64,000 bases of DNA from Oscillospiraceae bacterium (lineage in GTDB: Bacteria > Bacillota > Clostridia > Oscillospirales > Ruminococcaceae), in assembly GCA_015067145.1 (NCBI GenBank), contig SVNA01000009.1, positions 1 to 64,000 on the forward strand. Reading direction: 5' to 3'. The notes beneath the pieces are model-generated. The model was not told the origin of the DNA, searched no databases, and saw only the letters and a program-made list of their open reading frames with translations. Numbering within the stretch: the first letter of the stretch is position 1; each line of letters begins with the position of its first letter. The position numbers were made by a program, and so were the translations under genes. This document shows, one piece after another, positions 52,267 through 54,310 of this stretch.

Positions 52267-52271
52267 CTAAA

Positions 52272-52318
52272 ATACCCGAGCGGATATAAAACATTATCCG
52301 TGCGGGTATTTTTTTGTT
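52272..52318 (+). terminator. Intrinsic terminator after the deacetylase gene
   Basis: AAATACCCGAGCGGATA...TATCCGTGCGGGTATTTTTTT. Confidence 0.75.
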
Positions 52319-52408
52319 GCGATATTTTTATACACCTGCTTTCTGTTGCAAAATACTGCTGCATAGTGTTAATATATTATATAATCTCTCTTTAAAAGGA
52401 GACTTATC

Positions 52409-53827
52409 ATGAAGAAGAAAAAACTGGCAAAAATTATACTGCTTGCTATGCCGCTTATTCTTGGTATGACAGGCTACTTTATTGTAGACGGGCGTCCCTT
52501 TCTGCAATCTTTGTACATTTCCATAAAGCTTTACGGATTTGGTGCAGAAGAAACACCGCCTAATACAATTATAGAAATCGCCCGATGGGTAGGTCCTGTT
52601 GCAACTGCCAGCACCATAGTTGCCGTTGTAGCACTACTTCGCAGAGGCATACACAATATTATTGCAAATATCGGTGGTAACAGCACTGCTGTATATGGTC
52701 CCGACAAGCTAAAAGACAATATGCTGAAACAGCTGGGCAAAAAAGGCATAGACGGCAGAGACAAATTTGTTGAAGCCGACAACTATATTTTGCTGGACAG
52801 TGAAGATAAAAACCTTGCATTTTATGAAAAGCACCGCAAAAAACTGGTGAACAATGAAGTTTTTGCCAAAAGCGACTCACTTTCAGCACAGTGGGCATCT
52901 GAACACAATCTGCACCTGTTCTGCCCCGAGGAGATTGCAGCCTCTGTTTTCTGGAAAGAACACTGTATCTATCCTCTTTCCAGACAGTGTGACCACAAAA
53001 TGAAAATTGCTGTTCTGGGCTTTGACAAGCTTGGCAGAGAACTGATTTTATCTGCATTGCAGAGCAACATCTTTTCCTCTGTTCAGCAGCTTAGCTATCA
53101 CATCTGGGGTGATGCTGACGGCTTTCTGAATATCCACCATCAGCTTTCACAGATTGAGGACAACATTGTTTTTCATTATAAAAACTGGTATGAAGAAATT
53201 GGTTTCCTAAATCAGTGCAATATGATTATCGTCACTGCTCAGGATAATCAGTCCGACCTTGTCAGAAAGCTGCTGCTTGCCACAGACTGTAAAAAAATAT
53301 ATCTTTTCAGTGCTGCCGACTGTAATATACGTCTTATCGAAAACAGCGACAGAATTACACCTTTCGACTGGACCAAAACTGCTTTCTGTGCAAAAAATAT
53401 CCTTGAAAACGAACTTTTTGAAAAGGCAAAACTGTTAAATCTGCGTTATAAAAATCTCTATAATAACGTAGAAGAAAACAGCAAAAACAAGGAACTGTGC
53501 TGGCAGAAGCTCAACACCTTTACCCGTTATTCCAATATCAGTGCCGCAGATTTTTACGATATAATGAAATATATCCTCATCTGCGAAAACCAGCCTGCAG
53601 ATATTGAGCAGCTGCCCGAAGACTGGGTTGACCGGCTTGCAAACCTTGAACATATACGCTGGTGCAGATATCATTATCTGAACAACTGGAAATACGGCAA
53701 AGTGGAAAACGGCACAAAGGATGTTAAAAACCGCATTCACGCAGACCTTGTTCCTTACGATACACTTTCTGACAGCGAAAAAGAAAAAGACAAAGAAAAT
53801 ATCCGTATTCTTTTCTCCCTCGGATAA
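52409..53827 (+). CDS. Membrane protein with channel-like N-terminus, TrkA-N/Rossmann-like regions and C-terminal RyR domain
   Basis: N-terminal TM-loop-TM; KIAVLGFDKLGREL Rossmann motif; C-terminal LEHIRWCRYHYLNNWKYG...IHADLVPYDTLSDSEKEKDKENI matches RyR pattern. Confidence 0.78.
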   Translation: MKKKKLAKIILLAMPLILGMTGYFIVDGRPFLQSLYISIKLYGFGAEETPPNTIIEIARWVGPVATASTIVAVVALLRRGIHNIIANIGGNSTAVYGPDKLKDNMLKQLGKKGIDGRDKFVEADNYILLDSEDKNLAFYEKHRKKLVNNEVFAKSDSLSAQWASEHNLHLFCPEEIAASVFWKEHCIYPLSRQCDHKMKIAVLGFDKLGRELILSALQSNIFSSVQQLSYHIWGDADGFLNIHHQLSQIEDNIVFHYKNWYEEIGFLNQCNMIIVTAQDNQSDLVRKLLLATDCKKIYLFSAADCNIRLIENSDRITPFDWTKTAFCAKNILENELFEKAKLLNLRYKNLYNNVEENSKNKELCWQKLNTFTRYSNISAADFYDIMKYILICENQPADIEQLPEDWVDRLANLEHIRWCRYHYLNNWKYGKVENGTKDVKNRIHADLVPYDTLSDSEKEKDKENIRILFSLG

Positions 53828-53877
53828 TTTTGTACATTCGTCACTTACCTTTTCTGATATATCAAGGAGGTTTTTCC

Positions 53878-54252
53878 ATGATTTTTGATAAACTGAACGG
53901 TCAGAAGACCAAAAAAGACCTTTTTCTGCTTTGCAACAAATGCCGCAAATTTCTTTCTGAACAGCTGGAAAAGGAAGACTTTCGTGGTTTTTCAGTGCAT
54001 TTTAAAAATATAGTAAATGGCTGGAGTATAGACCAATGCGGTCTGCGTATAGTAAAAAGCTATAAGGGCGAAGGCTATTTCTGTCTTGAAATCTTCGGCA
54101 CCTTCCCTGACGGTTCGGGCTATGAGATGAAAAATATACTTTTACAGGAAACAAAAGATAAACTTAAAGAGTATCTTGCAAGGGATGAAATGGCCGATGA
54201 AATGATTGAAACCTTTGGCAACTTCAGCGAAAGTATTGAAGACAAGCTGTAA
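53878..54252 (+). CDS. Hypothetical protein downstream of the RyR-domain gene
   Basis: AAGGAGG upstream of MIFDKLNGQKTKKDLF; no family recognised. Confidence 0.7.
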   Translation: MIFDKLNGQKTKKDLFLLCNKCRKFLSEQLEKEDFRGFSVHFKNIVNGWSIDQCGLRIVKSYKGEGYFCLEIFGTFPDGSGYEMKNILLQETKDKLKEYLARDEMADEMIETFGNFSESIEDKL

Positions 54253-54262
54253 TTACAATTTT

Positions 54263-54310
54263 ATAAAAAACAAAAACCGTATGGGCACAAATTGTTCCAT
54301 ACGGTTATTT
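54263..54310. terminator. Intrinsic terminator, probably bidirectional
   Basis: AAAACCGTATGG...CCATACGGTTATTTTTT. Confidence 0.8.

Follow-up and report, generated by a model that had tools for sequence, protein, structure and literature searches.

A two-gene cassette at 52409-54252 of contig SVNA01000009.1, whose first 64,000 nucleotides form the window analysed here (Oscillospiraceae bacterium, a gut organism, assembly GCA_015067145.1), may well encode one half of a bacterial TIR signalling system. Its first gene (gene 1) specifies a membrane protein of 472 amino acids (aa) that ends in an RyR domain, and its second a 124-aa protein, P124. We read gene 1 as the receptor/effector in a TIR system akin to Thoeris, one that is present in unlinked form in the window genome, and we give this reading a probability of only about 0.55, because its pore, its ligand and its role in defence are inferred and because some lineages hold the gene in a housekeeping-like context. 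Judged by gene neighbourhoods and co-occurrence, the recurrent partner of the gene 1 family is a TIR protein, encoded in cis or in trans, and not the small neighbour P124.

In the mechanism that we envision, a TIR enzyme would sense infection or stress and make an ADP-ribose-type nucleotide from NAD+, which the C-terminal RyR domain of gene 1 would bind through H415, W418, H444 and D461. Binding would lead the Rossmann-like ring region to open or assemble a small, non-canonical membrane pore, and the changed ion flux would stop growth of the infected cell. In the window strain, this putative channel would be served in trans by a TIR-WD40-type protein encoded on contig C9, and P124 would be an accessory gene in the TIR-RyR system.

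Gene 1 and its parts are as follows.

52409-53827, + strand: gene 1, RyR-domain membrane protein, 472 aa, open reading frame (ORF) with ATG start (PF02026; 14 full-length homologues aligned)
52433-52648, + strand: membrane segment (hydropathy; hhalign to second RyR subunit)
52991-53341, + strand: Rossmann-like beta-alpha-beta region (hhalign; AF2 secondary structure, low confidence)
53618-53806, + strand: RyR domain, aa 404-466 (Pfam PF02026, E 7.8e-9)

With 36.1 bits against a curated cut-off of 27.4, the PF02026 match bears out an earlier note that had recognized an RyR domain at the C terminus, and the best PDB sequence matches of this region are animal RyR chains. PF02026 aside, nothing in gene 1 was recognized by Pfam, NCBIfam or PADLOC. 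A larger portion, aa 149-468, is homologous to the cytosolic part of K+-channel-type RyR proteins (hhalign E 1.1e-53, profile A4), which carry genuine K+-channel pores at their N termini (Ion_trans_2 E 1e-12 to 1e-15; KcsA-like PDB chains). In gene 1 itself, hydrophobic stretches at aa 9-27 and about 60-78 enclose a pore-helix-like stretch at aa 30-46, FLQSLYISIKLYGFG (by hydropathy), and the segment has no TVGYG filter and no Ion_trans_2 or TrkA_N match in Pfam. A canonical K+ pore is not supported, as there was no Pfam pore match and the pore comparison was not significant. The TIR-RyR-RyR operons of the K+-channel-type RyR proteins also encode a second RyR subunit, which aligns with gene 1 from end to end, membrane region included (hhalign E 3.6e-33). 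Because its own membrane segment matches only this subunit and not a K+ pore, channel function is something that we infer.

The putative ligand site can be compared with that of RyDEP, a phage RyR-domain protein that binds and cleaves 2'/3' cyclic ADP-ribose (2'/3'cADPR) via H75, W78, H100 and D117, of which H75 and D117 are catalytic; most other conserved RyDEP homologues bind without cleaving (PMC13232231, a study of 2026). Alignment to the RyDEP reference, gp78 of phage DyoEdafos, places the equivalent residues of gene 1 as follows.

53651-53653, + strand: H415, equivalent to the catalytic H75
53660-53662, + strand: W418, equivalent to W78
53738-53740, + strand: H444, equivalent to H100
53789-53791, + strand: D461, equivalent to D117

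All four are invariant in the 14 full-length homologues, drawn from several families, so the residues that one would expect for an ADP-ribose-type ligand are retained in the gene 1 family. RyDEP and gene 1 thus have the four cADPR-contacting residues of the RyR domain in common, but RyDEP is a soluble phage protein of 138 aa that works against defence as an enzyme or sponge, whereas the RyR domain of gene 1 ends a 472-aa chromosomal membrane protein. Animal ryanodine receptors likewise have a homologous RyR repeat in which adenine-ligand pocket residues are kept; gene 1 lacks their Ca2+-release channel core and has 472 aa against about 5000. The position of RyDEP H100 is occupied by threonine in three stand-alone bacterial RyR proteins of about 95 aa. 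Such stand-alone proteins, without the H100 histidine, directly adjoin TIR genes at L034 (genome G081) and L038 (G428).

TIR genes recur beside RyR genes in varied arrangements. More distant relatives of gene 1 adjoin TIR-TPR proteins in G045, G106 and G184, the last with a second RyR gene on the opposite strand between the two, and another adjoins a TIR protein in G418. Pairs of K+-channel-type RyR genes adjoin TIR proteins in G001, G010, G012, G015, G368 and G403, and in G089 a single protein (L026 9796-11805) fuses membrane helices, TIR and RyR domains. The TIR domains at RyR loci score to ThsB-type models and conserve a glutamate at a WVxxEI-like position, which we take to be the NADase catalytic residue of TIR enzymes. 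In G477, the gene upstream of and overlapping the RyR gene encodes the C-terminal portion of a TIR-STAND-type protein (assigned by homology to a TIR-STAND protein in G006), cut by the contig end. An Arcobacter plasmid carries TrkA_N, RyR and DUF4062 genes in a row, and DUF4062 is a TIR-like NADase (PMC13174449).

The two contig ends of G477, L122 (C117) and L142 (C251), look like halves of one TIR-STAND-TPR gene; joined, these contigs look as though they would make a TIR, TIR-STAND, RyR operon. At L123-L126 (G621, G471, G661 and G813), relatives of gene 1 are fixed beside alr and yebC-like genes; opposite them lies a membrane protein whose tail is acidic, and the TIR genes of these genomes are not linked to them.

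Linkage is accompanied by co-occurrence across whole genomes. Among 394 genomes of the order, TIR_2 was found in 28 of the 32 that are RyR-positive (88%) and in 83 of the other 362 (23%; P 3e-13). Within the genus the figures are 7/8 for RyR-channel genomes and 0/8 for the others (P 0.0014), and in a sample of the class 12/14 and 46/158 (P 5e-5). At least 10 of the 32 RyR loci have a TIR gene no more than about 10 kb away, where 0.2 would be expected for a mean genome of 2.25 Mb. Full-length relatives of gene 1 were found in 15 genomes, 13 of which carry a TIR gene; the assemblies of the two TIR-less genomes are 76% and 65% complete.

The window genome encodes a single RyR protein and, on a separate contig, the only TIR protein that was detected; further TIR or RyR proteins may be missing because the assembly is 83% complete. 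This TIR protein, at C9:1990-5202 (TIR_2 E 2e-10), is of the TIR-WD40 type, and its first 350-450 aa share 33-36% identity with the TIR-WD40 proteins that partner RyR channels in sister species; it also resembles unlinked TIR proteins of G621, G471, G661 and G813. Because it resembles RyR-linked TIR proteins, its pairing in trans with gene 1 is plausible. G568 offers a parallel, with an unlinked RyR gene and, elsewhere, a TIR-TPR protein that shares 37-43% identity with its RyR-linked counterparts in G045, G106 and G184.

The cassette occupies a chromosomal slot, between a polysaccharide-deacetylase gene and fabG, that varies across the window's genus.

G007: empty
G002: ClC-type channel gene (L084 7562-8818)
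G006: RyR and TIR
G004: RyR, TIR and P124
G000 (window genome): RyR and P124
G011: RyR alone

The slot was placed by its fabG flank in G004 and G011, where the deacetylase flank was not recovered as an ortholog. The ClC-type gene in G002 means that different membrane-channel genes share this one variable site. The TIR-membrane protein encoded in G004 and G006 matches PDZ weakly, and the window genome either lost a slot-linked TIR or never possessed one. No TIR-like sequence was seen by eye in the 50-bp gap between the RyR and P124 genes of the window genome, and a TIR remnant was rejected there, in only 50 bases. A viral origin of gene 1 was likewise rejected, as no full-length relative was found in viral contigs or phage records. 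Plasmids held no full-length relative either. The RyR gene beside the TIR gene in G006 (L018 10295-11755) has an in-frame TAA in its SNISAAD motif and is either a pseudogene or an assembly error.

The remaining elements of the cassette and its boundaries are listed here.

52269-52312, + strand: left-boundary intrinsic terminator of the upstream polysaccharide-deacetylase gene (fold -24.0 kcal/mol, z -8.0)
52346-52375, + strand: sigma-70-type promoter candidate, TTGCAA-18 nt-TAATAT (sequence, by-eye comparison)
52395-52402, + strand: ribosome-binding site (RBS) of gene 1, AAAGGAGA (sequence)
53864-53870, + strand: RBS of the P124 gene, AAGGAGG (sequence)
53878-54252, + strand: P124, with alpha-beta4-alpha2 predicted at low confidence; the one other copy follows a TIR gene in G004
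54275-54306, no strand: right-boundary terminator, between P124 and a convergent fabG-like gene (fold -16.7 kcal/mol, z -5.5)

The ORF list and the sequence agree with the earlier note that two ORFs are present with AAGGAGG before the second, and the terminators that it placed on either side are real outliers in folding: no shuffled sequence folds equally well, and a U run follows each hairpin. A simple terminator scan of the region picked up neither hairpin, probably because of their loop sizes. The P124 ATG is nested within a longer ORF that opens mechanically with TTG at 53830; given its strong RBS, the ATG at 53878 is likely the actual start. The TTGCAA-18-TAATAT element is likely the promoter of gene 1, and by eye a similar element precedes the RyR gene in G004 and G006 too; a consensus promoter scan of the region gave no enrichment over shuffles.

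Pfam, NCBIfam, PADLOC and PHROGs gave no significant match to P124. Its one other copy, 47% identical, lies 3' of the TIR gene in the RyR-TIR-P124 operon of G004, and none was found beyond these two genomes among 100 relatives and 394 genomes of the order, nor in viral contigs. We therefore rejected it as a conserved RyR partner, and the earlier note's idea of a dedicated partner falls with it; P124 may be an accessory or modulator protein. That note had counted it against its proposal if homologues of the second gene never lay beside RyR genes; they do so in one operon, that of G004, by which the proposal narrowly survives this test. Its broader picture, an RyR membrane protein in its own transcription unit with a plausibly signalling or channel-like role, holds up, whereas the word 'autonomous' does not, as a TIR protein recurs in cis or in trans.

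Several points weigh against gene 1 being the effector of a TIR enzyme. There is no TIR gene in the 64-kb window, nor in the slot of the window genome or of G011, and relatives of gene 1 are unlinked to any TIR gene in G621, G471, G661, G813, G568 and G542. The conserved, housekeeping-like surroundings of the gene in four f52 genomes suggest that the family has a broader role. The membrane segment has no K+ selectivity filter and no significant similarity to known pores, and the structure models of both proteins are poor (mean pLDDT 45 for gene 1, from 2 sequences only, and 47 for P124, from a single sequence). The co-occurrence counts ignore phylogeny and genome size, and TIR and RyR genes could both be merely accessory genes of larger or defence-rich genomes.

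Gene 1 might instead be a housekeeping ion channel gated by nucleotides or redox state, sensing ADP-ribose, NAD(H) or ATP through its Rossmann-like and RyR domains to adjust ion balance; TIR genes would then be neighbours only now and then. In favour of such a channel are the syntenic copies of the four f52 genomes, which lie next to alr, NAD(P)HX-repair-like and yebC-like genes and are unlinked to TIR genes, the unlinked copies of G568 and G542, and the TrkA_N-type domains in relatives. However, TIR genes are present all the same in each of the four f52 genomes and in G568, presence in the window's genus is patchy and confined to one variable slot, and TIR linkage comes in many independent arrangements; we regard this explanation as unlikely. 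It seems to us quite unlikely that gene 1 ends the response rather than executing it, its RyR domain acting as a glycosidase like RyDEP on the cADPR isomers that TIR enzymes make: both catalytic residues are present as H415 and D461, but the domain is fused to a membrane and ring domain, like those of ligand-gated channels, and other conserved RyDEP homologues bound without cleaving (PMC13232231). Finally, the window cassette might be a non-functional leftover whose TIR gene is gone, as the TIR-less slot, the in-frame stop in G006 and the lone RyR gene of G011 could suggest; with both window ORFs intact behind good RBSs, the ligand residues kept and a related TIR protein elsewhere in the genome, we find this very unlikely.

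A TIR-dependent effector of the kind that we favour would resemble known systems in part. Thoeris also pairs a TIR enzyme (ThsB) with a separate nucleotide-binding effector (ThsA), but its effectors are SIR2-SLOG, Macro-TM or caspase-like proteins rather than an RyR-domain membrane or channel protein with a putative role in defence, and PADLOC gave no match to a known ThsA effector domain in gene 1. The TIR gene, moreover, is absent from the window operon, though present in those of G004, G006 and others. With RCK/TrkA-gated two-helix K+ channels, gene 1 shares a membrane segment followed by a cytosolic Rossmann-like ring region; the TIR-linked RyR paralogues are true Ion_trans_2 channels of this sort, whereas gene 1 lacks the TVGYG filter, matches neither Ion_trans_2 nor TrkA_N, and has RyR at its C terminus. 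Swarozyc/DUF4062 NADase systems (PMC13174449) are similar in that DUF4062 adjoins TrkA_N and RyR genes on the Arcobacter plasmid, but no DUF4062 was found beside gene 1 and P124.

More broadly, and with the odds somewhat against it, bacteria may run a full circuit from a TIR enzyme through a cADPR-type signal to an RyR-domain ion channel, encoded together or apart, of which the window would hold the unlinked version. Direct action of cyclic ADP-ribose on ryanodine receptors has been debated for decades, and in humans the RyR domain regulates muscle calcium-release channels. If it exists, the TIR-cADPR-RyR circuit would give prokaryotes an equivalent of the cADPR-ryanodine receptor axis that is disputed in animals, and small TIR and RyR-channel operons would make that question testable with two or three purified proteins. 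With such a circuit, control of membrane potential would join the known outputs of TIR immunity, and there would be a reason for phages to carry sponges and hydrolases with RyR domains.

RyR domains occur in other settings as well. A further class of RyR proteins, about 580-635 aa with several membrane helices, has no TIR gene nearby (L070-L072, L076 and L077). A Methylobacterium plasmid protein (L087 5676-8408) joins an AAA/MoxR-like region to a C-terminal RyR domain, with a SIR2 family gene nearby.
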